DNA from: Antedon mediterranea
Lineage: Eukaryota > Echinodermata > Crinoidea > Comatulida > Antedonidae
Direction: 5' to 3'
Assembly: GCF_964355755.1 (NCBI RefSeq)
Contig: NC_092678.1
Span: 21,238,922-21,302,921, forward strand
DNA: 64,000 nucleotides
Made by a program: the position numbers and the translations under genes. This document shows positions 14,700-36,706 of this stretch, one piece after another. The notes beneath the pieces were generated by a model. The model did no database searches and was not told where the DNA came from. It saw nothing but the letters and a program-made list of their open reading frames with translations. Position 1 is the stretch's first letter, and every line of letters starts with the position of its first letter.

Positions 14700-17095
14700 G
14701 TGTTTTTATTTTCTTAATTCACAAATATACAAATAAAATACAAAGGTGTTGGTGTCTTTTTTATTTTATTTCACAAAATAAAATAAAAATGTGTTTATAA
14801 AATGTCTATTTTAATTTTAATTCACAAATTTATGAAACAAAATACATGTTGGGGTTTATACATGTTGGCATTTATACATGTTGGCATCTAATATTTCTTT
14901 TACAAAATGACAAACTAAAATACAATAATGTTTGTTGGTATTTATTTTCACAAAATACAAATGTGCATTGGTGCCAATTTTTTATTTACAAATATATGGT
15001 TGTGTCTATTTTTATTCACATATTTACAAAATAAAATAAGGTGTGTATGGTGTCTATTTTTTTTTTTATTTCACAAATTTACTGTTTGCTGCCCTCTTTA
15101 TCTATAAACTTTTTTTAATGTAAACTTTTAGGCATGGGCATTCTTAAATAACACTCAACATTTACAATCAAATACAAATATGTGTTGGGTGTCTATTTTT
15201 TATTTTCAAAATAAAATGTCTATTTTTTATTTATTTCACAAAATGAAATACAAATATGTGTTTGGTTTTTTTTATTTCACAAATATGTGTTGGGTGTCTG
15301 GTTTTTTTATTTCACAAATATGTGTTGTGTGTCATTTTTTATTTCACAAATATGTGTTGGGTGTCTGGTTTTTTTATTTCACAAATATGTGTTGGGTGTC
15401 TGGTTTTTTTATTTCACAAATACAAACAAAAATGTTGGTGTAAATTTTTTATTTCTAAATATTTGTAGGGGTTCATGAAATAAAATACAAATGTGTTGGG
15501 TGTCTATTTTTTTATTTTACAAAATGAAATACGAAATATGCGTTCGGTTTTTTTTTTTATTTCACAAATATGTGTTGGGTGTCTATTTTTTATTTTCAAA
15601 ATAAAATGTCTATTTTTTTTTTAGTTCACAAAATGAAATATAAATATGTGTTGTGTGTCTATTTTTTTATTTCACAAAATAAAATATAAATAGGTGCCTA
15701 ATTTTGTTTTTACACAAATTAAAATACATATATGTGTTGGGTGTCTATTTTTTTATTTCACAAATATGTGTTGGGTGTCTGGTTTTTTTATTTCACAAAT
15801 ATGTGTTGTGTGTAAATTTTTATTTCACAAAATACAAAAAAAATGTTACCTGTAAATTTTTTATTTCTAAATATTTGTAGGGGTTCATGAAATATGAAAT
15901 AAAATACAAATGTGTTGGGTGTCTATTTTTTTATTTCACAAAATAAAATATAAATAGGTGCCTAATTTTGTTTTTACACAAATTAAAATACATATATGTG
16001 TTGGGTGTCTTTTTTTTTATTTCACAAATATGTGTTGGGTGTCTGGTTTTTTTATTTCACAAATATGTGTTGTGTGTCATTTTTTATTTCAAAAAATCCA
16101 AAAAAAATGTTAGTGTAAATTTGTTATTTCTAAATATTTGTAGGGGTTCATGAAATAAAATATAAATAGGTGCCTAATTTTGTTTTTCCACAAATTAAAA
16201 TACATATATGTGTTGGTGCATATTTTTTTTATTTCACAAATATGTGTTGGGTGTCTGGTTTTTTTATTTGACAAATATGAGTTGTGTGTCATTTTTTATT
16301 TCACAAAATCCAAAAAAAATGTTGGTGTAAATTTTTTATTTCTAAATATTTGTAGGGGTTCATGAAATAAAATATAAATAGGTGCCTAATTTTGTTTTTC
16401 CACAAATTAAAATACATATATGTGTTGGTACATATTTTTTTTTAATAAAAAAAAAAAAATACAAATAGGTGTTGTTGAATGTTTATCTTTTTTCATTTCA
16501 CAAAACAGAATTTTCTTTAATTTTCAAAAATAAAATACAAAATATGTATTTGTAATTTTTTTTTTTATTTCACAAATATGTGTTGGTTGTCATTTTATTT
16601 TACAAAATAAAATGCAAATATATCTTTTGTCTATTTTCTAATTTAATTCACAAATTTATTGTTTGCTGCCATCTTTGCCTACAAACTTCTTTTACTGTAA
16701 GTTTTAGCCCATGGAAGTGAGACCCAGCCATTGAAAGCCATTTGAAGTCTGACCCTGCCATTTGAAGTCTGACCCAGACATTGGAAGTCTGACACAGCCA
16801 TTGGAAGCCTGACACAGCCATTTGAAGTCTGACCCAGACATTGGAAGTCTGACACAGCCATTGGAAGCTTGACACAGCCGTTGGATGCCAAATCAGCATT
16901 TTTAATTTACATATGTACAAAATAAAATACATTATTATATGCATTTGGTTTTGTTATTATTCATAAGTGGTGTGTGTCTATTTTTTGCATATTTACAAAA
17001 TTTAAAAAAATACATTGTTTTTTAATTTTATGTGAGTTTTTTTTTAATTCAAACATTTAAAAAATAAAATAAAGTGTTTGTTTTTATTTTTTATT
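14700..17095. repeat. AT-rich minisatellite block (tgtgttgggtgtctattttt...)
   Basis: Degenerate units of about 35-60 bp are built from tgtgttgggtgtct followed by a T-run, atttcacaaa and an A-rich half. At 15280-15425 the 35 bp form is nearly regular. A larger unit of roughly 215 bp, marked by tatttgtaggggttcatgaa, recurs near 15460, 15875, 16132 and 16345. Open frames here are repeat artefacts. Confidence 0.85.
16720..16885. repeat. 20 bp repeat array, about 8 units
   Basis: The unit is close to agtctgacacagccattgga. It interrupts the AT-rich block and belongs to the same family as the arrays at 23424, 27287 and 30807. Confidence 0.85.
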
Positions 17096-17425: not shown

Positions 17426-18000
17426 AAAAAATAATCTGCATTATTATTTTCTTTTATTTATTTTGTTTATTTACTTTTTTCTGCTTCTAAATTTATAGGT
17501 ATACAGCTTTCTTCAGATGTCATGAGATGTGCAGACAAATGTTCACCAACACATTTTTTGTGTGTGTATATATAACCTAAAATAGGAGGGCTATAAATGA
17601 TGCTATCAATAAAGTTATGTATTAAATAATACCTAAATTATTTTAATAACCAATTGATATATTTTATTTTGCAGTTCAAATCAGATTGCTCAATGGAAGT
17701 TTCTTATCAGTTATTTTTGTTATAATTTTATCTTTATGTCTTTCAGTTTTCTTTATATTTCATTCATATTCCATTTTAAATTTTGCCATGTCGATTGCAG
17801 TTTTCTCTGCATTTTTTGGATACTAAAACTGATGGTTCATGATATTGTTTCTGTATCAAGTTTGCTGACTGGTATGGTCTAATGGTAAACATGCAACTGA
17901 TTCATATTTTTTTTTTTTTTTTTTTTTGCCCTCTTTTGCTGTGTCTGACTGAAGTACAAATGATGGATCTAGGTTTCTTCAGTCTCCTTGCAGCAATTAG
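17426..18000. other. Unique AT-rich spacer between repeat arrays
   Basis: No gene was found. A T-run of about 20 lies near 17908. The stretch ends in ggtttcttcagtctccttgc, which resembles the block that recurs inside the following satellite. Confidence 0.4.
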
Positions 18001-18544
18001 TCTACACCAAGATGATTCACATCATCCTAACAAGTCTACACCAAGATGATTCACATCATCCTAACAAGTCTACACCAAGATGATTCACATCATCCTAACA
18101 AGTCTACACCAAGATGATTCACATCATCCTAACAAGTCTACACCAAGATGATTCACATCATCCTAACAAGTCTACACCAAGATGATTCACATCATCCTAA
18201 CAAGTCTACACCAAGATGATTCACATCATCCTAACAAGTCTACACCAAGATGATTCACATCATCCTAACAAGTCTACACCAAGATGATTCACATCATCCT
18301 AACAAGTCTACACCAAGATGATTCACATCATCCTAACAAGTCTACACCAAGATGATTCACATCATCCTAACAAGTCTACACCAAGATGATTCACATCATC
18401 CTAACAAGTCTACACCAAGATGATTCACATCATCCTAACAAGTCTACACCAAGATGATTCACATCATCCTAACAAGTCTACACCAAGATGATTCACATCA
18501 TCCTAACAAGTCTACACCAAGATGATTCACATCATCCTAACAAG
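18001..18544. repeat. Perfect tandem array, 16 x 34 bp
   Basis: The unit starts tctacaccaagatgattcac and ends atcctaacaag. Sixteen copies follow head to tail without a visible difference (544 bp = 16 x 34 exactly). The next unit at 18545 already differs and starts the degenerate 38 bp satellite. There are no spacers, so this is not a CRISPR array. Confidence 0.97.
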
Positions 18545-21500
18545 TCTACATCAAGATGATTGACGTCAACCTTAACAGCAAGTCTACACCAAGACGATTG
18601 ATGTCAACCTGAACAACAAGTCTACACCAAGAAGATTGATGTCAACCCTAACAGCAAGTCTACATCAAGAAGATAGACGTCAACCTTCACAGCAAGTTTA
18701 CATAAAGACGATTGACGTCAACCTTAACAGCAAGTCTACACCAAAACGAATGATGTCAAACTTTGGTTACGTTCAACACTTATTTCACCATTTTTAAACC
18801 CTGTCCCTTCCCCCTTCCAAATTGTCCTTAGTGTGCAACATTTACATCCAGTTGCTTTTTTCAAAGTTTGTCATGCTTTAGCGCAACATTCTTGCCTTTG
18901 CAATAGCACTGACTCTCTTGTCTTTTTTAAAATCTTGACCTCTTTTAATTGCTTTCTCTGATGTACCATACAAAAGGTGGGTTTAGGTTTCTTCAATCTC
19001 TTTACAGCAAGTCTACATGAAGACAAGTGATGTCTACTTAAAGTGTAAATGAAGTAGATAGCTGACGTCAAATTGCAATGCAAAAAAGGCATTTAATTTA
19101 GGTTACATTCAGTCGTAATTCCACCATTTTCAAGTCCTCATCCCATCCCTCCTATTTCAAAATCGTACAAAATGTTTTTTTACGTCGCACATAACATCAA
19201 TTCCACATGAAGACAATGACGTCAACTCTAACAGCAAGACTACACCAAGATTGACGTCAACTTTAACAGCAAGTCTACATCAAGATGATTCACATCAACC
19301 TAACACATCAACATGAAGACGATTGACGTCAACCTTAACAGCAAGTCTACACCAAAACGAACGATGTCAAACTGTGGTTACGTTCAGCACCATTTTTAAA
19401 CCCTGTCCCTTCCCCCTTCCAAATTGTCCTTAGTGTGCAACATTTCCATCCAGTTGCTTTTTTCAAGGTTTGTTATGCTTTAGAGCAACATTCTTGCTTT
19501 TGCAGTAGCACCGACTCTCTTTACATCAAGTCTACCTGAAGACAAGTGATGTCAATTTGAAGTCTAAATTCAGTATTTAATTCCACCATTCTTAAGTGCT
19601 CATCCCATCCCTCCTATTTCAAAATCGTACAAAATGTTTTAAATCACACATAACATCAATTCCACATGAAGAAAAATGATGTCAACCTAAACAGAAAGTC
19701 TACATGAAGAATATTAAAGATGTATTGTCCCTTTGTCAAATTCCCAAAAAATTAAAAAAAAAGATTTCGAAACTATTTAACTTGTGAATTACTCTTTTCA
19801 GATCTTGCTTCTATGAAGGTATATTGAAGGTATCAATCAACGGCAAGTCTACATGAAGACGAATGACTTCAACCATAACAGCAAGTCTACACCAAGATTG
19901 ACGTCAACCATATCAGCAAAAGTCTACACCAAGACGATTGATGTCAAACTTAACAGCAAGTCTACACCAAGAAGATTGATGTCAACCTTAAAATCAAGTC
20001 TACATCAAGACGATTGACGTCAGCCTTAACAGCAAGTCTACACCAAGAAGATTGATGTCAACCTTAAAAGCAAGTCAACATCAAGACGATTGACGTCAAC
20101 CTTAACAGCAAGTCTACACCAAGAAGATTGATGTCAACCTTAACAGCAAATCTACACCAAGACAATAGATGTCAACCTTAACAGCAAATCTACACCAAGA
20201 CAATAGATGTCAACCTTAACAGCAAGTCTACACATAGACGATTGACGTCAACCTTAACAGCAAGTCTACCCCGAAGTCTACACCAAGACGATTGACGTCC
20301 CATCCCTCCTATTTCAAAATCGTACACAATTTTGTTTTACGTCACACATAACATCAATTCCACATGAAGACAATGATGTCAACCCTAACAGCAACACTAC
20401 ACCAAGATTGACGTCAACCTTAACAGCAAGTCTACATCAAGATGATTCACATCAACCTAACAAGTCTACATAAAGACGATTGACGTCAACCTTAACAGCA
20501 AGTCTACACCAAAAGGAACGATGTCAAAAAATGTGGTTACGTTTAGCACTTAATTTCACCATTTTTAAACCCTGTCCCTTCCCCCTTCCAAATTGTCCTT
20601 AGTGTGCAACATTTCCATCTATTTGCTTTTTTCAAAGTTTATTATGCTTTAGCGCAACATTCTTGCCTTTGCAATAGCACTGACTCTCTTTTTTAAAATC
20701 TTGACCTCTTTTAATTGCTTTTTCTGATGTACTGTACAAAAGGTTGGTTTAGGTTTCTTCAATCTCCTTACAGCAAGTCTACATGAAAACAATTGATTTC
20801 AAATTGAAGTCTACACGAAGAAGATGCAAAATATAAGACATTTAATTTAGGTTACATTCATTCTTAATTCCACCATTTTTAAGTCCTCATGCCATCCCTC
20901 CTATTTCAAAATCGTACAAAATGTTTTACATCACACATAACATCAATTCCACATGAAGACGAATGATGTCAACCTAAACAGAAAGTCTACATGAAGAATA
21001 TTAACTTAACAAGTCTACACTGAGAAGATTCATGATGTCAACTTTAACAGCAAGTCTACACCAAGACAATAGATGTCAACCTTAACAGCAAATCTACACC
21101 AAGACAATAGATGTCAACCTTAACAGCAAGTCTACACGAAGACGAATTTTGATTAATTAAATTAATTGTATCGACATATGAATATATATTTAACTTGTGA
21201 TTACTCTTTTCAGATCTTGCTTCTATGAAGGTATATTGAAGGTATCAATCTTAACGACAAGTCAACATGAAGACGAATGACTTCAACCATAACAGCAAGT
21301 CTACACCAAGATTGATGTCAACCATAACAGCAAGTCTACACCAAGAAATTGATGTCAACCTTAACAGCAAGTCTACACCAAGAAGATTGATGGCAACCTT
21401 AAAAGCAAGTTTACATCAAGACGATTGACGTCAACCTTAACAGCAAGTCTACACCAAGAAGATTGACGTCAACCTTAACAGCAAATCTACACCAAGACAA

Positions 21501-23423
21501 TAGATGTCAACCTTAACAGCAAGTCTACACAACGACGATTGACGTCAACCTTAACAGCAAGTCTACACCAAGAAGATTGATGTCAACCTTAAAAGCAAGT
21601 CTACATCAAGACGATTGACGTCAACCTTAACAGCAAGTCTACACCAAGACGATTGACGTCAACCTTAACAGCAAGTCTACACCAAGACAATAGATGTCAA
21701 CCTTAACAGCAAATCTACACCAAGACAATAGATGTCAACCTTAACAGCAAGTCTACACCAAGACAATAGATGTCAACCTTAACAGCAAGTCTACACCAAG
21801 AAGATTGATGTCAACCTTAAAAGCAAGTCTACATCAAGACGATTGACGTCAACCTTAACAGCAAGTCTACACCAAGACGATTGACGTCAACCTTAAACAG
21901 CAAGTCTACACCAAGATGATTGATGTCAATCTTAACAGCAAGTCTACACCAAGACGATTGATGTCAAACTTTGGTTATGTTCAGCACTTAATTTCACCAT
22001 TTTTAAATGCTGTCCTTTCCCACTTCCAAATTTTCCTTGTGCAACATTTCTATCCAGTTGCTTTTTTCACAGTTTGTTTAGCACAACATTCTTGTTTTTG
22101 CAATAGCACTGACTCCCTTGTCTTTTTTAAAATCTTGAACTCTTTTAATTGCTTTCTCTGATGTACTGTACAAAAGGTTGGTTTAGGTTTCTTCAATCTC
22201 CTTACAGCAAGTCTACATGAAAACAAGTGATTTCAAATTATAGTCTACACGAAGAAGATGCAAAATATAAGACATTTAATTTAGGTTACATTCAGTCTTA
22301 ATTCCACCATTTTTAGGTCCTCATACCATCCCTCCTATTTCTAAATCGTACAAAATGTTGCATACATCACACAGAGCATCAATTCCAGATGAAGACGAAT
22401 TATGTCAACTAAACAGAAAGTCTACACCAAGAAAATTGACATCAACCTTAACAGCAAGTCTACACCAAGACGATTGATGTCAACCTTAACAGCAAGTTTA
22501 CATGATGAAAGATAGGACACTTGCGTTACATTCAGAACTTTCAGAATGTTTAAGCTCTATCCCCTCCCTTTAATTTCAAAATCGTCCTTATTGTGCAATG
22601 TTTCCATGCAGCTGCTTTTTTCAGAGTTTGTGCTTTAGCGAAGCATTCTTAATTTTGCAACAGCACCGACAATTTTGTCTTATTTTTTTTCTTATTCTAT
22701 GATGTACAAAAGATGAGTCACAGGTTTCTTCGGTCTCTTTGCCCCAAGTTCATGTACATCAAGGCAATTGTAGTCAACCTTAACAGCAAGTCTACATCAA
22801 GACGATTGATGTCAACCTTAACAGCAAGTCCACATGAAGACGAATGACGTCAACCTTAACAGCAAGTCTACACCAAGACGATTGACATTAACCTTAACAG
22901 CAAGTCTACACCAAGACAATTGACGTCAAACTTTGGTTACGTTCAGCACTTATTTCATCATTTTTAAACCCTGTCCTTTCTTCCTTCCAAATTGTCCTTA
23001 GTGTGCAACATTTCCATCCAGTTGCTCTTTTAAAGTTTGTTATGCTTTAGCACGCCATTCTTGCTTTTGCAATAGCACGGAATTTCTTGTTTTTTTTAAA
23101 TCTTGACCTCTTTAAATTGCTTTCTCTGATGTACTGTACAAAAGGTGATTTTAGGTTTCTTCAATCTCTTTACAGCAAGTCTATATGAAAACAAGTGATG
23201 TCAAATTAAAGTCTACATGAAGAAGATATATGTCAAATTGCAGTGCAAAAGATAAAACATTTAATTTAGGTTACATTCAGTCTTAATTCCACCATTTGTA
23301 AGTCCTCATCCCATCCCTCGTAGTTCAAAATCGTACAAAATGTTGTTTTACTTCACACATAACATCAATTCCACATACAGAAGAATGATGTCAATCTGAA
23401 CAGAAAGTCTACATGAAGACGAG

Positions 23424-23870
23424 GTTGACACAGCTGTTGGAAGTCTGACCCAGCCATTGGAAGTCTGACACAGCCATTGGAAGTCTGACACAGCCATTGG
23501 AAGTCTGACGCAGCCATTGGAAGTCTGACGCAGCCATTGGAAGTCTGACAAAGCCATTGGAAGTCTGACACAGCCATTGGAAGTCTGACAAAGCCATGGA
23601 AAGTCTGACAAAGCCATGGAAAGTCTGACCCAGCTATTGGGAGTCAGACAAAGCCATTGGGAGTCAGACAAAGCCATTGGGAGTCAGACAAAGCCATTGG
23701 AAGTCTGACACAGCCATTGGAAGTCTGACACAGCCATTGGAAGTCTGACACAGCCATGGAAGTCTGACACAGCCATTGGAAGTCTGACACAGCCATTGGA
23801 AGTCTGACAGCCATTGGAAGTCTGACACAGCCGTTGGAAGTCTGACCCGCCATTAGAAGTCTGACCCCGC
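23424..23870. repeat. 20 bp repeat array, about 22 units
   Basis: The unit agtctgacacagccattgga appears with some 18-19 bp and substituted variants. All three minus-strand frames stay open because the unit has few stops, giving overlapping open frames of 60-110 codons that are not genes. Confidence 0.9.
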
Positions 23871-26800
23871 CAACGTTAACAGCAAGTCTACATCAAGATG
23901 ATTGACGCCAGCTTTAACAGCAAGTCAACACCAAACGATAAACATCAACCATGACAACAAGTCTACACCAAGAAGATTGACGTCAAACTTTGGTTATATT
24001 CAGCACTTATTTCATCATTTTTAAACCCTGTCCCTTCTTCCTTCCAAATTGTCCTTAGTGTGCAACATTTCCATCCAGTTGCTTTTTTCAAAGTTTGTTA
24101 TGCTTTAGCATGCCATTCCTCCTTTTGCAATAGCACTGACTCTCTTGTCTTTTTTAAAAACTTGACCTCTTTTAATTGCTTTCTCTGATGTACTGTACAA
24201 AAGGTTGATTTAGTAATGAAAACATTTCTTCTGGTTTCGATTCGTATAATGATATAAGTAGTTCTTTGAGGTTGGTTTAGGTTTCTTCAATCTCTTTACA
24301 GCAAGTCTACATGATAGTGATGTCAAATTAAAGTCTACATGAAGAAGATATATGTGAAATTGCAGTGCAAAAGATAAAACATTTAATTTAGGTTACATTC
24401 AGTCTGAATTCCACCATTTGTAAGTCCTCATCCCATCCCTCCTATTTCAAAATCGTACAAAATGTTGTTTTAAGTCACACATAACATCAATTCCACATGA
24501 AGACAATGACGTCAACCCTAACAGCAAGACTACACCAAGATTGACGTCAACCTTAACAGCAAGTCTACATCAAGATGATTCACATCAACCTAACAAGTCT
24601 ACATGAAGACGATTGACGTCAACCTTAACAGCAAGTCTACACCAAAACGAACGATGTCAAACTGTTGTTACGTTTAGCACTTAATTTCACCATTTTTAAA
24701 CCCTGTCCCTTCCCCCTTCCAAATTGTCCTTAGTGTGCAACATTTCCATCTAGTTGCTTTTTTCAAAGTTTGTTATGCTTTAGCGCAACATTCTTGCTTT
24801 TGCAATAGCACTGACTCTCTTCTCTTTTTTAAAATCTTGACCTCTTTTAATTGCTGTCTCTGATGTACTGTACAAAAGGTTGGTTTAGGTTTCTTCAATC
24901 TCCTTACAGCAAGTCTACATGAAAACAAGTGATTTCAAATTGAAGTCTACACAAAGAAGATGCAAAATATAAGACATTTAATTTAGGTTACATTCAGTCT
25001 TAATTCCACCATTTTTAAGTCCTCATCCCATCCCTCCTATTTCAAAATCGTACAAAATGTTTTACATCACACATAACATCAATTCCACAAGAAGAAAAAT
25101 GATGTCAACCTAAACAGAAAGTCTACATGAAGAATATTAACTTAACAAGTCTACACAGAGAAGATTCATGACGTCAACATTAACAGCAAATCTACACCAA
25201 GACAATAGATGTCAACCTTAACAGCAAGTCTACACCAAGACGAATTTTGATTAATTAAATTAATTGTATCGACATATGAATAACTATTTAACTTGTGAAT
25301 TACTCTTTTCAGATCTTGCTTCTATGAAGGTATATTGAAGGTATCAATCTTAACAGCAAGTCTACATGAAGACGAATGACTTCAACCATAACAGCAAGTC
25401 TACACCAAGATTGACGTCAACCATATAAGCAAGTCTACACCAAGACGATTGATGTCAAACTTAACAGCAAGTCTACACCAAGAAGATTGATGTCAACCTT
25501 AAAAGCAAGTCTACATCAAGACGATTGACGTCAACCTTAACAGCAAGTCTACACCAAGAAGATTGATGGCAACCTTAAAAGCAAGTCTACATCAAGACGA
25601 TTGACGTCAACCTTAACATCAAGTCTACACCAAGAAGATTGATGTCAACCTTAACAGCAAATCTACACCAAGACAATAGATGTCAACCTTAACAGCAAGT
25701 TTACACATAGACGATTGACGTCAACCTTAACAGCAAGTCTACACCAAGACAATTGACGTCAACCTTAACAGCAAGTCTACACCAAGAAGATTGATGTCAA
25801 TCTTCACAGCAAGTTTACACAAAGACGATTGATGTCAACCTTGAAAGCAAATTTACACCAAGAAGATTGACGTCAACCTTAACAGCAAGTCTGCACCAAG
25901 ATTGACGTCAAACTTAACAGCAAGTCTACATCAAGACGATTGACGTCAAACTTAACAGCAAGTGTACATCAAGACGATTAACGTCAAACTTAATAGCAAG
26001 TCTACACCAAGAATTGTTAGAAATCAACCTTAACAGCAAGTCTACACCAAGAAGATTGACATCAACCGTAACAGCCAGTCTACACAAAGACGATTGACGT
26101 CAACCTTAACAGCAAGTCTACACCAAGAAGTTAGATGTCAACCTTAACAGCAAGTCTACACCAAGACAATTGACGTCAAACTTTGGTTACGTTCAGCACT
26201 TATTTCACCATTTTTAAACCCTGTCCCTTCTTCCTTCCAAATTGTCCTTAGTGTGCAACATTTCCATCCAGTTGCTTTTTTCACAGTTTGTTATGCTTTA
26301 GCACGCCATTCTTGCTTTTGCAATAGCACTGACTCTCTTGTCTTTTTTACAAACTTGACCTCTTTTAATTGCTTTCTCTGATCTACTGTACAAAAGGTTG
26401 GTTTAGGTTTCTTCAATCTCTTTACAGCAAGTCTACATGATGATAGTGATGTCAAATTAAAGTCTACATGAAGAAGATGTCAAATTTCAGTGCAAAAGAT
26501 AAAACATTTAATTTAGGTTACATTCAGTCTGAATTCCACCATTTGTAAGTCCTCATCCCATCCCTCCTATTTCAAAATCGTACAAAATGTTGTTTTACGT
26601 CACACATAACATCAATTCCACATGAAGACAATGACGTCAACCCTAACAGCAAGACTACACCAAGATTGACGTCAACCTTAACAGCAAGTCTACATCAAGA
26701 TGATTCACATCAACCTAACAAGTCTACATGAAGACGATTGACGTCAACCTTAACAGCAAGTCTACACCAAAACGAACGATGTCAAACTGTGGTTACGTTT

Positions 26801-27353
26801 AGCACTTAATTTCACCATTTTTAAACCCTGTCCCTTCCCCCTTCCAAATTGTCCTTAGTGTGCAACATTTACATCCAGTTGCTTTTTTCAAAGTTTGTTA
26901 TGCTTTAGCGCAACATTCTTGCTTTTGCAATAGCACTGACTCTCTTGTCTTTTTTAAAATCTTGACCTCTTTAAATTGCTTTCTCTGATGTACTGTACAA
27001 AAGGTTGGTTTAGGTTTCTTCAATCTCTTTACAGCAAGTCTATATGAAAACAAGTGATGTCAAATTAAAGTCTACATAAAGAAGATATATGTCAAATTGC
27101 AGTGCAAAAGATAAAACATTTAATTTAGGTTACATTCAGTCTGAATTCCACCATTTGTAAGTCCTCATCCCATCCCTCGTAGTTCAAAATCGTACAAAAT
27201 GTTGTTTTACTTCACACATAACATCAATTCCACATACAGAAGAATGATGTTAATCTGAACAGAAAGTCTACATGAAGACGAGGTTGACACAGCTGTTGGA
27301 AATCTGACCCAGCCATTGGAAGTCTGACACAGCCATTAGAAGTCTGACCCCGC
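23871..27353. repeat. Higher-order repeat, copy 1 (3,483 bp)
   Basis: This copy begins at caacgttaacagcaagtcta and contains 38 bp runs, four 450 bp blocks and a short 20 bp array at its end. The same order and sequence follow in the next 3.5 kb with only scattered differences. Confidence 0.92.
27287..27353. repeat. 20 bp repeat array, about 3 units
   Basis: Short version of the same array, placed exactly where the longer ones stand at 23424 and 30807. Array length is therefore the main difference between the higher-order copies. Confidence 0.85.
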
Positions 27354-30300
27354 CAACGTTAACAGCAAGTCTACATCAAGATGATTGACGCCAGCTTTAA
27401 CAGCAAGTCAACACCAAACGATAGACATCAACCATGACAACAAGTCTACACCAAGAAGATTGACGTCAAACTTTGGTTATATTCAGCACTTATTTCATCA
27501 TTTTTAAACCCTGTCCCTTCTTCCTTCCAAATTGTCCTTAGTGTGCAACATTTCCATCCAGTTGCTTTTTTCAAAGTTTGTTATGCTTTAGCATGCCATT
27601 CCTCCTTTTGCAATAGCACTGACTCTCTTGTCTTTTTTAAAAACTTGACCTCTTTTAATTGCTTTCTCTGATGTACTGTACAAAAGGTTGATTTAGTAAT
27701 GAAAACATTTCTTCTGGTTTCGATTCGTATAATGATATAAGTAGTTCTTTGAGGTTGGTTTAGGTTTCTTCAATCTTTTTACAGCAAGTCTACATGATAG
27801 TGATGTCAAATTAAAGTCTACATGAAGAAGATATATGTGAAATTGCAGTGCAAAAGATAAAACATTTAATTTAGGTTACATTCAGTCTGAATTCCACCAT
27901 TTGTAAGTCCTCATCCCATCCCTCCTATTTCAAAATCGTACAAAATGTTGTTTTAAGTCACACATAACATCAATTCCACATGAAGACAATGACGTCAACC
28001 CTAACAGCAAGACTACACCAAGATTGACGTCAACCTTAACAGCAAGTCTACATCAAGATGATTCACATCAACCTAACAAGTCTACATGAAGACGATTGAC
28101 GTCAACCTTAACAGCAAGTCTACACCAAAACGAACGATGTCAAACTGTTGTTACGTTTAGCACTTAATTTCACCATTTTTAAACCCTGTCCCTTCCCCCT
28201 TCCAAATTGTCTTTAGTGTGCAACATTTCCATCTAGTTGCTTTTTTCAAAGTTTGTTATGCTTTAGCGCAACATTCTTGCTTTTGCAATAGCACTGACTC
28301 TCTTCTCTTTTTAAAATCTTGACCTCTTTTAATTGCTGTCTCTGATGTACTGTACAAAAGGTTGGTTTAGGTTTCTTCAATCTCCTTACAGCAAGTCTAC
28401 ATGAAAACAAGTGATTTCAAATTGAAGTCTACACAAAGAAGATGCAAAATATAAGACATTTAATTTAGGTTACATTCAGTCTTAATTCCACCATTTTTAA
28501 GTCCTCATCCCATCCCTCCTATTTCAAAATCGTACAAAATGTTTTACATCACACATAACATCAATTCCACAAGAAGAAAAATGATGTCAACCTAAACAGA
28601 AAGTCTACATGAAGAATATTAACTTAACAAGTCTACACAGAGAAGATTCATGACGTCAACATTAACAGCAAGTCTACACCAAGACAATAGATGTCAATCT
28701 TAACAGCAAATCTACACCAAGACAATAGATGTCAACCTTAACAGCAAGTCTACACCAAGACGAATTTTGATTAATTAAATTAATTGTATCGACATATGAA
28801 TAACTATTTAACTTGTGAATTACTCTTTTCAGATCTTGCTTCTATGAAGGTATATTGAAGGTATCAATCTTAACAGCAAGTCTACATGAAGACGAATGAC
28901 TTCAACCATAACAGCAAGTCTACACCAAGATTGACGTCAACCATATAAGCAAGTCTACACCAAGACGATTGATGTCAAACTTAACAGCAAGTCTACACCA
29001 AGAAGATTGATGTCAACCTTAAAAGCAAGTCTACATCAAGACGATTGACGTCAACCTTAACAGCAAGTCTACACCAAGAAGATTGATGGCAACCTTAAAA
29101 GCAAGTCTACATCAAGACGATTGACGTCAACCTTAACATCAAGTCTACACCAAGAAGATTGATGTCAACCTTAACAGCAAATCTACACCAAGACAATAGA
29201 TGTCAACCTTAACAGCAAGTTTACACATAGACGATTGACGTCAACCTTAACAGCAAGTCTACACCAAGACAATTGACGTCAACCTTAACAGCAAGTCTAC
29301 ACCAAGAAGATTGATGTCAATCTTCACAGCAAGTTTACACAAAGACGATTGATGTCAACCTTGAAAGCAAATTTACACCAAGAAGATTGACGTCAACCTT
29401 AACAGCAAGTCTACACCAAGATTGACGTCAAACTTAACAGCAAGTCTACATCAAGACGATTGACGTCAAACTTAACAGCAAGTGTACATCAAGACGATTG
29501 ACGTCAAACTTAATAGCAAGTCTACACCAAGAATTGTTAGAAATCAACCTTAACAGCAAGTCTACACCAAGAAGATTGACATCAACCGTAACAGCCAGTC
29601 TACACAAAGACGATTGACGTCAACCTTAACAGCAAGTCTACACCAAGAAGTTAGATGTCAACCTTAACAGCAAGTCTACACCAAGACAATTGACGTCAAA
29701 CTTTGGTTACGTTCAGCACTTATTTCACCATTTTTAAACCCTGTCCCTTCTTCCTTCCAAATTGTCCTTAGTGTGCAACATTTCCATCCAGTTGCTTTTT
29801 TCACAGTTTGTTATGCTTTAGCACGCCATTCTTGCTTTTGCAATAGCACTGACTCTCTTGTCTTTTTTACAAACTTGACCTCTTTTAATTGCTTTCTCTG
29901 ATCTACTGTACAAAAGGTTGGTTTAGGTTTCTTCAATCTCTTTACAGCAAGTCTACATGATGATAGTGATGTCAAATTAAAGTCTACATGAAGAAGATGT
30001 CAAATTTCAGTGCAAAAGATAAAACATTTAATTTAGGTTACATTCAGTCTGAATTCCACCATTTGTAAGTCCTCATCCCATCCCTCCTATTTCAAAATCG
30101 TACAAAATGTTGTTTTACGTCACACATAACATCAATTCCACATGAAGACAATGACGTCAACCCTAACAGCAAGACTACACCAAGATTGACGTCAACCTTA
30201 ACAGCAAGTCTACATCAAGATGATTCACATCAACCTAACAAGTCTACATGAAGACGATTGACGTCAACCTTAACAGCAAGTCTACACCAAAACGAACGAT

Positions 30301-30836
30301 GTCAAACTGTGGTTACGTTTAGCACTTAATTTCACCATTTTTAAACCCTGTCCCTTCCCCCTTCCAAATTGTCCTTAGTGTGCAACATTTACATCCAGTT
30401 GCTTTTTTCAAAGTTTGTTATGCTTTAGCGCAACATTCTTGCTTTTGCAATAGCACTGACTCTCTTGTCTTTTTTAAAATCTTGACCTCTTTAAATTGCT
30501 TTCTCTGATGTACTGTACAAAAGGTTGGTTTAGGTTTCTTCAATCTCTTTACAGCAAGTCTATATGAAAACAAGTGATGTCAAATTAAAGTCTACATAAA
30601 GAAGATATATGTCAAATTGCAGTGCAAAAGATAAAACATTTAATTTAGGTTACATTCAGTCTGAATTCCACCATTTGTAAGTCCTCATCCCATCCCTCGT
30701 AGTTCAAAATCGTACAAAATGTTGTTTTACTTCACACATAACATCAATTCCACATACAGAAGAATGATGTTAATCTGAACAGAAAGTCTACATGAAGACG
30801 AGGTTGACACAGCTGTTGGAAATCTGACCCAGCCAT
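27354..30836. repeat. Higher-order repeat, copy 2
   Basis: Near-identical to copy 1. Landmarks are offset by 3,483 bp at the start and about 3,520 bp at the end, because copy 2 has an extra 38 bp unit near 28680. I noticed only a handful of substitutions, for example ttgtctttag for ttgtccttag. The duplication is recent, or homogenised, or an assembly product. Confidence 0.9.
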
Positions 30837-31133
30837 TGGAAGTCTGACACAGCCATTGGAAGTCTGACGCAACCATTGGAAGTTTGACAAAGCCATTGGA
30901 AGTCTGACAAAGCCATTGGAAGTCTGACACAGCCATTGGAAGTCTGACACAGCCATTGGAAGTCTGACAAAGCCATGGGAAGTCTGACCCAGCTATTGGG
31001 AGCCAGACAAAGCCATTGGAATTCTGACACCGCCATGGAAGTCTGACACAGCCATTGGAAGTCTGACACAGCCATTGGAAGTCTGACACAGCCGTTGGAA
31101 GTCTGACCCAGCCATTGGAAGTCTGACCCCGCC
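30807..31133. repeat. 20 bp repeat array, about 16 units
   Basis: Same family and same junctions as 23424-23870. It ends in cgccagcgttaacagc, after which the 38 bp satellite resumes. Confidence 0.9.
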
Positions 31134-32189
31134 AGCGTTAACAGCAAGTCTACACCAAGACGATTGACGTCAACCTTAACAGCAAATCTACACCAAGACG
31201 AATGACGTCAACCTTAACAGCAAGTCTACACCAAGACGATTGATGTCAAACTTTGGTTACATGTTCAGCACTTATTTCACCATTTTTAAACCCTGTCCCT
31301 TCCCCCTTCCAAATTGTCCTTAGTGTGCAACATTTCCATCCAGTTGCTTTTTTCAAAGTTTGTTATGCTTTAGCACAACATTCTTGCTTTTGCAATAGCA
31401 CTGACTCTCTTGTCTTTTTTAAATCTTGACCTCTTTTAATTGCTTTCTCTGATGTACTGTACAAAAGGTGGGTTTAGGTTTCTTCAATCTCTTTACAGCA
31501 AGTCTACATGAAGACAAGTGATGTCTACTTAAAGTGTAAATGAAGAAGATAGACATCAAATTACAATGCAAAAAAATGTAGGTTACATTCAGTCTTAATT
31601 CCACCATTTTCCACCAGTCCTCATCCCATCCCTCCTATTTCAAAATCGTTTTATGTCACACATAACATTAATTCCACATGAAGACGATGACGTCAACCCT
31701 AACAGAAAGTCTACATCAAGATGATTGACGTCAACCTTCACAGCAAGTCTACACCAAGACGATTGACGTCAACACTAACAGCAAGTCTACACCAAGAAGA
31801 TTGATGTCAACCTTAACAGCAAGTCTACACCAAAATGATTAACGTCAACACTAACAGCAAGTCTACACCAAGAAGATTCATGACGTCAACCTTAACAGCA
31901 AGTCTACACCAAGATGATTGATGTCAACACTAACAGCAAGTCTACACCAAGAAGATTCATTACTTCAACCTTAACAGCAAGTCTACACCAAGATGATTGA
32001 CGTCAACACTAACAGCAAGTCTACACCAAGAAGATTCATGACATCAACCTTAACAGCTAGTCTACACCAAGATGATTGACATCAACACGAACAGCAAGTC
32101 TACACCAAGAAGATTGACGTCAACTAACAGCAAGTCTACACCAAGAAGATTCATGACGTCAACCTTAACAGCAAGTCTACCAATTGATG

Positions 32190-32640
32190 TCAGAAGATGA
32201 TGTTCTGAATCATGACATTTTCTTATGTATATGTTGTGATAAATTAAATTAATTGTATCATGAATATATGTATGAATAACTATATCACTTCTCAATTACT
32301 CTTTTCAGATCTTGCTCCTATGAAGGTATTAATGCATGAGACAATTGAAGTCACAGGTAAACAACTTCATCGGTAGGCCTACACACACACAACTTAATTC
32401 TCTTCTCTACTCTTTCAGATCTGTTTCAAGTGCTGATGCAAAGCTGTTTTAACTAAACACAGTTATGCCACCTTAAATGGGTATGTACAACAATTTTTGT
32501 TTACAGATCAGATGAAATGGTCTTGTGAAAAGCTGTTGAAATAGCAGGTAGGAAGTGCTAAATGGATCTAGATGAAGAATGATGAATTTTATTTTTACTC
32601 TTGGTAAATTATTACATGTTATAGACCTGTAATATGTATG
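32190..32640. other. Unique-looking spacer with splice-like sites
   Basis: It contains cttttcag followed by a 17 nt segment and gtatta (32309), and a second acceptor-like tctttcag at about 32419 that precedes cttaaatgg|gtatgt. No reading frame is maintained. It may be part of a non-coding transcript. Confidence 0.35.
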
Positions 32641-34740
32641 TTGGTTTTGGTATGATACTTTTTTCCTTGAGTAATTTAAATGTATTGTAGCTAAGAAAGT
32701 AAAGCTTTTAGTTAGGTAAGTTTAAATGTATTTCAATTAATTTTATTTGTTTTGAGCATATTTTATATTTAATGTGTAAGGATGGATTATCTTAGTATAT
32801 TAGTTTTCCTATAGTGTGTCTGTAGCTAATTTAAATGCGAGTTTCAATTGGTATTTTCTTGGTATATATTTTCTCTGCAGTTAGGTGTGTAGCTAAGTTA
32901 AATTTCAGATTAATTATAGTTAAGAAGGTAAGTTTAACTGTATATCAATTGGTTTTATTCTTTTATTATTTTACACAATTTGTAAGGTAGTATTATCTTT
33001 GTTTGGTAAGTTTTCCTGCAGGTATGTGTGTAGCTAAGAAGTAAGTTCAGATTAATTGTAGTTGAGAATTAAGGTATTATGTTTAAGGTAAGTTTAACTG
33101 TATATCAATTGGTTTTATTATTTTTTTTTTTTTGTAAGGTGGTATTTTTCAGGTACATGTGTAGCTTAGTTAAATGTAAGTTTAGCTATTAAGTTCAAAT
33201 TTATTATTGTTAAGAAGGTATATGTTTAATTTAAGGTTAAATGCATATAAATTGGTGTTATTCTTTTATTATTTTATATAATATGTAAGTTGGTATTATC
33301 TTGGTATAAGTTTTCCTGCAGGTATAAGTGTAGCGAAGTTCAGAATAATTGTAGTTAAGATGGTATATGTATAGGGTAAGTTTAAATGCATATTAATTGG
33401 TGCTATTATTCTTTTATTATATTATTATATAATGTGTAAGTTGGTATTATCTTGGTATATAGGTTTTCTTTAGACATGTTATGAGTTACATGTAAGTTTA
33501 GCTATAAGTTCAGATTAATTCTGTTAAGGTATAGAAAATATGTTTAAATGCATATCAATTGGTTTTATTATTTTACAATTCAATATAACTCCCTGGTATT
33601 ATCTTCATGTAAGTGTTCAAGTTTTTGTTTAAGTTTCATATTAAATTGTAGTTAAGAGGGTATATGGTTTAAATGCATATCAATTGGTGTTATTCTTATA
33701 CTATTTTATATAATTTGTAAGTTGGTATTATCTTCATGCAGGTAAATGTAAGTGTTCAAGTTTTTGTTTAAGTTTCATATTAAATTGTAGTTAAGAGGGT
33801 ATATGGTTTAAATGCATATCAATTGGTGTTATTCTTATACTATTTTATATAATTTGTAAGTTGGTATTATCTTGGTATATAGTTTTTCTGCAAGTACTGT
33901 ATGTGTGTATCTATGTTAAATGCAAGTTCTTAGCTAAGTTCAAATTAATTGTAGTTAAGAAGGTATATGTTTAAAGTAAGTTCAAATGTATATCAATTGG
34001 TTTTATTCTTTTAATATTGTATATGATGGGTAAGTTGTTATTATCTTGGTATATATTTTTCCTGCAGGTGTGTGTGTGTGTGTAGCTAAATTAAATGTAA
34101 GTTTAGCTAAGTTTAGATTGTAGTTAAGAATTAAGGTATATGTTTAAGGTAAGTTTAAATGCATATCAATTGGTTTTATTCTTTTATTATTTTATATAAT
34201 GTGTAAGTTTGTATACGTTTTCCCGCAGGTAGGTGTGTAGCTAAGTTATATTGTTGATAAGAAGTTTCAGATTTAAGGTAAAAGTTTCAATGCATTTCAA
34301 ATCATTTTATTTGTTTTAAGTTTATTTTATATAATTTTAAGGAGATATTATTTTGGTAGTATATGTGTAGCTAAGTTAAAATTAAGTGTTGATTAGGAGT
34401 TACAGGTTTTAAATGTAAAAGTTTTAATGCATTTAAATTCAGGTTTTTGTTGCAAATTTATTTTACATAATTGTAAGTTGGCATTACCTTGGTGTAGTAA
34501 CTTTTTTTTATGAATGTTGCCAAGTTAAATTTAAGTGCAGCTAAGAAATAAAAGGTAAAGTTTCAATGCATTTAAATTCATGTTTTTGGTTAATTTATTT
34601 TATTCAATAATGTTTAAGGTGGTATTATAGTTTTGTGTAGTAAATTTTCTTGCTGTTGTGTTTGTAGCTCAATTAGATTTGAGTGCAAAAAGTCAAAGGT
34701 TTAAAATAATATATGTTCTGTATCTGTAGGCTAACTATTG
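32640..34740. repeat. AT-rich tandem repeat, about 190 bp unit
   Basis: About ten to eleven degenerate units carry the ordered landmarks aaggtatatgtttaaggtaa, gcatatcaattggttttatt, gtaagttggtattatcttgg and ctgcaggtatgtgtgtagct. Two units near 33600-33860 are almost identical. No coding potential is seen. Confidence 0.85.
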
Positions 34741-34917
34741 TTCTTCTTAAGCACTATTTTTCAGAGTTGCTAGGAATAGCAGTGCATACTGGAACAGCCT
34801 ATCATACTTTATTATATGTGCGGGACTATTGGTTGGAATCGAAGATAAAACAGAATTTACTCATAGGGAGATACAGTTGATGCAGCACCAAGTTTAACCA
34901 ACATTCTGCAATTTCAG

Positions 34918-35640
34918 AGTTGGCCGATTAATATCCGGACCAACCTGTCTATCAGAGATATGTGCAGAACTTGGATTCTGGACTTAGAGGATGTTGTAGC
35001 AGAGGAAACAAGACCTACTACTGGAAGACAGTTTGTATTTTTGGACATGGAAAGACAATCAAGTAAGTTTACTACTAACCAAAATTCTTAAATTTTAGAA
35101 TTGGCCGATTAATATCTGAATCAACCTGTCTATCAGATGTGTGTGCAGAACTTGGATACTGGAATAGAGGATGGAGTAGCAGAAGAAACAAGACCTACTA
35201 CTGGAAGACAGTTTGTATTTTTGGACATGGGAGGTCAATGACGCAAGTTTACTACTAACTGAAATTCTGGAATTTCAGAGTTGGCCGATTAATATCTGAA
35301 CCAACCTGTCTTTCAGAGATGTGTGCAGAACTTGGATACTGGACATAGCGGATGGAGTAGCAGAAGAAACAAGACCTACTACTGGAAGACAGTTTGTATT
35401 TTTGGACATTGAAGGTCAATCACGTAAGTTTACTACTAACCAAAATTCTTAAATTTTTGAGTTGGCCGATTATTATCTGAACCAACCTGTCTACCAGAGA
35501 TGTGTGCAGAACTTGGATACTGGACATAGAGGATGAAGTAGCAGAAGAAACAAGACCTGCTACTGGACGACAGTTTGTATTTTTTGGACATGGAAGGTCA
35601 ATCACGTAAGTTACTACTAACCAACATTCTGCAATTTCAG
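34918..35640 (+). repeat. 181 bp tandem repeat with splice-site-like unit borders, 4 copies
   Basis: Units start near 34918, 35099, 35279 and 35460, with a diverging fifth at 35641. Each starts after an acceptor-like aatttcag (changed to ttttag in unit 2 and ttttga in unit 4) and about 145 bp later reaches caatcac|gtaagt (gcaagt in unit 2). The body reads gttggccgattaat and ends tttttggacatggaaggtca. Stops occur in all plus-strand frames, so any exons would be non-coding. Confidence 0.8.
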
Positions 35641-36188
35641 AGTTGATTGCATACACTGCTGCTGATTACAGAGCACATTGCATTGGAATAGGCCTACAAC
35701 CGAGTATAAGTAAGTATATATCTGTAAGGTAAGTTATAGGTGGTATAATATATTTATAGGTAGTGTGACCAATAATGTTGCATCTTTTAACTTTGTTTCT
35801 AAATTCTATATTTCCCATTTTAACCTCTACTTCTCTCCAGTCCTCTATTGTCCTTCAATTATTTAACTCTGATATAGTTTTCTTACTGCTTTAGGTTTCC
35901 ATGTCAAACAGTCACTCCAAATTTCCATTGCTGGAGAATCCACCCCTGACTTGTCTCTAATCCATTCTTAAAATCTTAACTTGCTCACTTATTTTTAGTG
36001 TCAATTACTAAATTTGTATTTTTCATTTCATTCATTGCCTTGCATCCATTCAACTTTATGTTATGCAAAATATTTTCCCTATCTTTCACCCCTTCTGAAA
36101 TAAAATTGCTGTTAATATCACATCATTTACCCATGTCTGCCTCTAATTCATTCTCAACATTGCTCACTTATTATTCTTATTGTCAATT

Positions 36189-36706
36189 ACGTAACTCTTA
36201 TTGACCACCTATGTAACTCTTATTGACCACCTACGTAACTCTTATTGACCACCTACGTAACTCTTATTGACCACCTACGTAACTCTTATTTACCACCTAC
36301 GTAACTCTTATTGACCACCTACGTAACTCTTATTCACCACCTACGTAACTCTTATTCACCACCTACGTAACTCTTATTCACCACCTACGTAACTCTTATT
36401 CACCACCTACGTAACTCTTATTCACCACCTACGTAACTCTTATTCACCACCTACGTAACTCTTATTGACCACCTACGTAACTCTTATTGACCACCTACGT
36501 AACTCTTATTGACCACCTACGTAACTCTTATTGACCACCTACGTAACTCTCCTACGTAACTCTTATTGACCACCTACGTAACTCTCCTACGTAACTCTTA
36601 TTGACCACCTACGTAACTCTTATTGACCACCTCATTAACTCTTATTGACCACCTACGTAACTCTTATTGACCACCTCATTAACTCTTATTGACCACCTCA
36701 TTAACT
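36189..36706. repeat. 22 bp minisatellite (ctcttattgaccacctacgt)
   Basis: About 23 units of 22 bp are nested in the 215 bp repeat. Sub-variants are clustered: a run with attcacc in the middle, flanked by attgacc on both sides. Some units are shortened to 13 bp. The palindrome tacgta is at the unit junction. Confidence 0.92.

Follow-up and report, generated by a model that had tools for sequence, protein, structure and literature searches.

A single-locus complex satellite with dozens of perfect cAMP response elements, probably passengers, next to micro-exon-like repeats in the crinoid Antedon mediterranea

A stretch of 64,000 nucleotides from the Antedon mediterranea genome (354 Mb in 18 contigs), referred to below as the window (C9:21238922-21302921), contains a long repeat array in which a perfect cAMP response element (CRE), TGACGTCA, recurs dozens of times. 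Does such an array serve bZIP factors as a sponge or a long enhancer, as the initial annotation proposed, or has the motif been copied along with the repeat that carries it? Our analysis points to the second answer: the array is probably a complex satellite at a single locus of a micro-exon family, with the CRE as a passenger and with no role as a bZIP sponge. Animal-type genes recognised in the course of the analysis were C1q, an acyltransferase, and a UBL4A-like gene.

The CRE content of the array was compared with 500 dinucleotide-preserving shuffles. Positions 18545-32190 hold 67 exact copies of TGACGTCA and 53 of TTGACGTCAA, against shuffled means of 0.28 and 0.03, respectively, and a shuffled maximum of 3 for these motifs. 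The dozens of perfect CREs reported at the outset are thus real, and repeat and profile scans also bore out the 38-bp unit and the coordinates assigned to the array. The many deamination variants that had been described were found for one product only: TGATGTCA occurs 43 times (0.45 in shuffles), whereas the 5 copies of TGACATCA do not exceed what shuffling yields (mean 0.8, maximum 6). Because tandem duplication multiplies every motif of a unit alike, the 67 sites are not independent observations; TGACGTCA ranks merely 22nd by frequency among the 8-mers of the region. Close TGACGTCA pairs are not special to the array locus either: pairs 20 to 44 bp apart number 158 in the genome and 19 at the array locus, with 691 for the reversed octamer.

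The features of the array and its flanks are listed in Table 1. Tandem-repeat and profile scans place the 38-bp units in tandem, head to tail. The array is not 13 kb of 38-bp units throughout: the ~139 copies cover only ~5 to 5.2 kb, roughly 40% of the 13.6-kb array. The rest consists of spacer A (~232 bp, 15 to 16 copies), which terminates in the acceptor-like TTTCTTCAATCTCTTTACAG, a degenerate unit pair, spacer B (~110 bp, ~16 copies), the 20-bp satellite TGACACAGCCATTGGAAGTC, which is present in the left flank too (16736-16885), and pieces of right-flank modules copied into the array (19771-19822, 21147-21267, 25245-25333, and 28765-28853). Blocks are duplicated at several scales, up to 3.5 kb, and the two 3.5-kb copies (23.8 to 27.3 and 27.3 to 30.9 kb) differ by only 5 substitutions when the 20-bp repeat is excluded. 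Unit subtypes follow the order "Cc Ag Ct At Cg At Cg At" block after block; therefore, the blocks arose by copying. The most homogeneous expansion is the 34-bp derivative at the left edge of the array. Since its copies are essentially identical, it is probably the newest amplification of the locus.

Table 1. Repeat features of the array and its flanks (positions in the window; a slash marks an apparent splice boundary).
Feature	Positions	Strand	Details
Complex satellite	18553-32190	+	~139 38-bp units (AAGACGATTGACGTCAACCTTAACAGCAAGTCTACACC) in spacer-separated blocks; 67 exact TGACGTCA
Representative spacer block	22934-23372	+	Spacer A (232 bp), degenerate unit pair, spacer B (110 bp); ~15-16 copies in array
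Embedded 20-bp satellite TGACACAGCCATTGGAAGTC	23426-23865	+	Further copies at 27285-27355 and 30805-31127
Tandem segmental duplication, recent	23807-30864	+	Offset 3,483-3,520 bp, ~99% identity
34-bp derivative of 38-bp unit	17999-18552	+	~16 essentially identical copies; no CRE, no CpG
Micro-exon-like modules	32190-32560	+	ctcttttcag/ATCTTGCTCC...GTCACAG/gtaaac plus two more
~140-bp tandem units, dispersed family	32888-34684	+	Motifs TTTTCCTGCAG/GTATG and GTAAGT; paralogues on C9 and C11
Four 181-bp units	34895-35645	+	145-bp exon-like and 35-36-bp intron-like parts (GTAAGTTTACTACTAACC...TTTCAG)

A genome pattern search at three or fewer mismatches returned 58 matches of the 38-bp unit, all inside the window, in agreement with BLAST; spacers A and B gave no match outside the window at the search sensitivity used. 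A dispersed satellite would place the same unit at several loci; here, the relatives found on C11 and C2 are all diverged. An origin of the spacer as a dispersed transposon was ruled out by the location of 20 of 20 matches inside the window. The 38-bp unit showed no significant homology to the 20-, 22-, 75-, and 103-bp repeats. The array was also ruled out as protein coding, the unit not being a multiple of 3 and TGA/TAA occurring in one cycled frame, and searches of Rfam and with ARAGORN (tRNA) returned no match. The 22-bp repeat, TACGTAACTCTTATTGACCACC, is present in 23 copies at 36188-36698 of the window, and a GC skew of ~−0.5 extends across 36 to 40 kb around it.

The exon-like modules on the right flank have relatives elsewhere. 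Loci of this family lie at C9:24.113-24.134 Mb (plus strand) and at C11:1.14-1.15, 1.736-1.760, 3.087-3.098, 18.392, and 19.571 Mb (minus strand), and micro-exon relatives are found at C2:14.739-14.744 Mb (plus strand). The order of modules is common to several loci across chromosomes, with some modules missing at some loci. The 181-bp units have paralogues at C9:24.13 Mb and C11:19.57 Mb; their exon-like part, read by eye, contains stop codons in every frame. The intron-like stretches in the window are matched by 33-bp ones at C11:19.57 Mb, and introns of the tandem micro-exon-like modules measure 33 to 62 nt across the family. In the apparent introns of 33 to 36 nt (window 34895-35645; C11:19.571 Mb), a donor, a TACTAAC-like branch site, and an acceptor are recognisable.

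Conservation of splice signals was estimated in C11 paralogues rather than in the window. The 1.7- and 3.1-Mb loci are built of ~103-bp units, each comprising a 41-nt exon-like part ending in AACCAATCACAG and a roughly 60-nt intron-like part (GTAAG...TTTTCAG). A strict pattern extracted 118 such units from the former locus and 42 from the latter. Among distinct units of the two arrays, the donor GT is retained in 74 of 77 and 58 of 60, and GTAAGAAA shows an identity of 0.90 to 1.00 compared to ~0.5 to 0.75 in the intron interior, above which the splice signals are thus conserved. Because the exon end served as the anchor in extracting the units, their exon conservation is biased by selection; the donor bases lie outside the anchor. 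The exon-like lengths of 41 and 40 nt are not multiples of 3, and stops occur in every frame, if rarely (1 to 2% of codons). Both features speak against a protein, although the scarcity of stops leaves a little room for a fast-evolving peptide. The consensus 41-nt exon-like unit itself has no stops in the three forward frames (C11:1.733-1.773 and 3.085-3.105 Mb).

At C11:19.57 Mb, a 57-bp head satellite (327 copies, 18.7 kb) is located upstream of the tail modules, as the 38-bp array is in the window. The alignment of the two units revealed modest homology (p 0.0005 for dimers and p 0.004 for a single copy), and the position aligned with the CRE reads TTGATGTATTCAA in the 57-bp unit. A 55-bp array at C2:13.978-13.991 Mb is related to the 57-bp unit (p 0.001); when compared directly with the 38-bp unit, it showed no significant similarity (p 0.30). 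TGACGTCA was not found in the C11 57-bp array or in the sampled parts of the C2 55-bp array. The 6 kb adjoining the latter contain none of the tail modules seen in the window, so that only its satellite ties the 13.98-Mb locus to the family. The C9 locus and the other C11 loci have micro-exon arrays instead of such a head satellite. Overall, the head-satellite position recurs at one sister locus; its sequence and its CRE do not.

A functional CRE would be expected to be better kept than the rest of the unit. Conservation was calculated in the 93 units left after one of the two large duplicated copies had been set aside. Column entropy averaged 0.36 in the octamer versus 0.32 in the other columns (one-sided Mann-Whitney p 0.70), and the octamer ranked 17th of 31 by conservation among the eight-column windows of the unit. 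In non-duplicate units, TGACGTCA is retained exactly in 44% and AGTCTACA in 79%. The CRE is therefore not the conserved part of the 38-bp unit.

Genome-wide, TGACGTCA occurs 25,377 times, compared to ~3,300 expected at window composition, and the share of the array is 67/25,377, or 0.26%. Part of the excess is supplied by a dispersed CpG-rich repeat, a main CRE reservoir of the genome: the CRE-containing 18-mer TGACGTCATCRTATGGCC has at least 6,373 near-matches, versus 19 for the reversed control. This repeat, seen at C1:920400-926000, C1:418900-421700, and C1:5.69-5.81 Mb, has a CpG observed/expected ratio (o/e) of 1.6 to 1.8 and TGACGTCAT motifs spaced 177 to 178 bp. Another TGACGTCA run lies at C3:34851700-34852600 in an apparently protein-coding repeat (EENDVSQ-type), and a near-perfect 29-bp minisatellite at C1:4176400-4176900, unrelated to the 38-bp unit, carries one TGACGTCA per unit. 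Orthologues of CREB, ATF2/7, and Jun, named by eye from their basic regions, are encoded in the genome, so that bZIP binding to the array sites is possible, but no result sets this array apart from the other CREs.

Deamination is expected to yield TG and CA products equally. At the central CpG of the CRE, we found 38 TG and 5 CA (27:5 among distinct units); the binomial p of ~1e-4 or less for this ratio assumes independent copies, which unit copies are not. The TG state is linked to unit subtypes, e.g., GAAGATTGATGTCAA and GACAATAGATGTCAA. Since the subtypes carry it and their order is repeated, it reflects a few founder changes that were amplified and not unit-by-unit decay. In spacers A and B, transitions at CpG are faster than at other C/G positions: they affect 9/40 and 5/39 in CpG columns versus 27/783 and 2/325 in other C/G columns (13 to 23% versus 0.6 to 3.4%, in both directions, with copies again not independent). 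Because spacer CpG sites mutate faster, germline CpG methylation at the locus is plausible. The initial annotation had drawn this conclusion from the decay pattern; the spacer transitions and a CpG o/e of 0.5 to 0.63 in the window are in line with it, but the subtype-linked products at the CRE are not. The 57-bp satellite (C11:19577000-19586999) has a CpG o/e of 0.05, the strongest depletion among the sampled stretches; the value of 0.50 in the 38-bp array might hint at retention.

How do these observations bear on the alternatives? That CREB/ATF/Jun dimers are titrated by the array, or that it drives a neighbouring gene as a long CRE enhancer, is very improbable. The 67 perfect sites far exceed chance and the cognate factors exist, but a sponge should hold a substantial share of genomic sites, and the 0.26% found here argues against one. 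So do the thousands of near-matches in a single dispersed repeat, the lack of excess conservation of the octamer, and the absence of the CRE from the related arrays and the 34-bp expansion. It is also unlikely, though less so, that a once homogeneous TGACGTCA array has been losing its octamers independently, unit by unit, through methylation-driven CpG deamination. The elevated spacer transitions would fit such a history, as would the central CpG of the CRE, which is among the most variable unit columns, and the CpG-poor 57-bp sister array, with TGATGT at the aligned place. Against it stand the excess of TG tied to subtypes, the other CpG of the unit, where a transversion (C5 to A) is the most frequent change, and the 3.5-kb duplication, a recent event after which no CpG has changed when the 20-bp repeat is left aside.

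Somewhat less unlikely is a neutral intergenic minisatellite cluster, whose exon-like modules would be untranscribed repeats merely resembling splice sites. It would account for the high local repeat content, the single locus of unit and spacers, and the lack of Rfam or tRNA matches, but not for the splice signals, which rank with the best-conserved sequence of the paralogous units, or for a module order common to different chromosomes. We favor a passenger CRE in a locally grown satellite. The array is of local origin and made of blocks, its CRE is not extra-conserved, its relatives are CRE-free, and the paralogues carry conserved splice signals. Slippage, unequal exchange, and block duplication would have enlarged the satellite at one locus, on the 5′ side of a single member of a tandem micro-exon family that is dispersed (C9 and C11, with related repeats on C2) and probably non-coding. 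TGACGTCA would have been present in the founder unit and then spread by copying, with no detectable selection. We infer that the locus may be transcribed and spliced from the plus strand with the array inside the primary transcript. Any function would then reside in that RNA, and a role at the RNA level is more likely than one through CREB/ATF or other bZIP binding. Some points weigh against this reading: the homology of the 38- and 57-bp units is modest, the 38- and 55-bp units are not significantly similar, the array has kept more CpG than its 57-bp sister, and bZIP factors could occupy the 67 perfect sites even if these are not under selection. More tentatively, several chromosomes may carry a family of spliced non-coding genes made of up to more than 100 tandem micro-exons of ~41 to 48 nt with introns down to 33 nt; the array would then be the rapidly evolving head repeat of one member, and each locus would swap in its own quickly amplified head unit.

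A satellite can gather dozens of perfect transcription factor sites without a sign of selection, which calls for caution with claims based on motif counting. In addition, the tandem micro-exon loci appear to form an undescribed family (no description of such a locus was found in the literature) whose paralogues can be compared for array turnover and for constraint on splicing.

Complex minisatellites and higher-order satellite DNA are characterized by head-to-tail units, subtypes, block duplication, and local homogenisation. The array shares all of these features; unlike them, it occupies one locus and is interleaved with long spacers and flanking exon-like pieces. Schistosome micro-exon genes (MEGs) are rich in very short exons arranged in tandem, with splice signals that are conserved, and the exon-like units of the family described here share these traits. 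In contrast to MEGs, the C11 units are 41/40 nt long, not multiples of 3, have stops in all frames, and show no apparent secreted protein. The octamer of the array is as perfect as the CRE targeted by CREB/ATF, but it lacks conservation beyond that of its unit, and any promoter context would be hypothetical. Human satellite III and Drosophila hsr-omega give rise to repeat-bearing long non-coding RNAs, and satellite III repeats carry putative binding elements for HSF1 (PMC9032817). Our locus resembles them in its long tandem repeats, which lie within or close to a putative non-coding transcription unit; it differs in having a predicted transcript, sister loci that lack the CRE, and additional micro-exon arrays.
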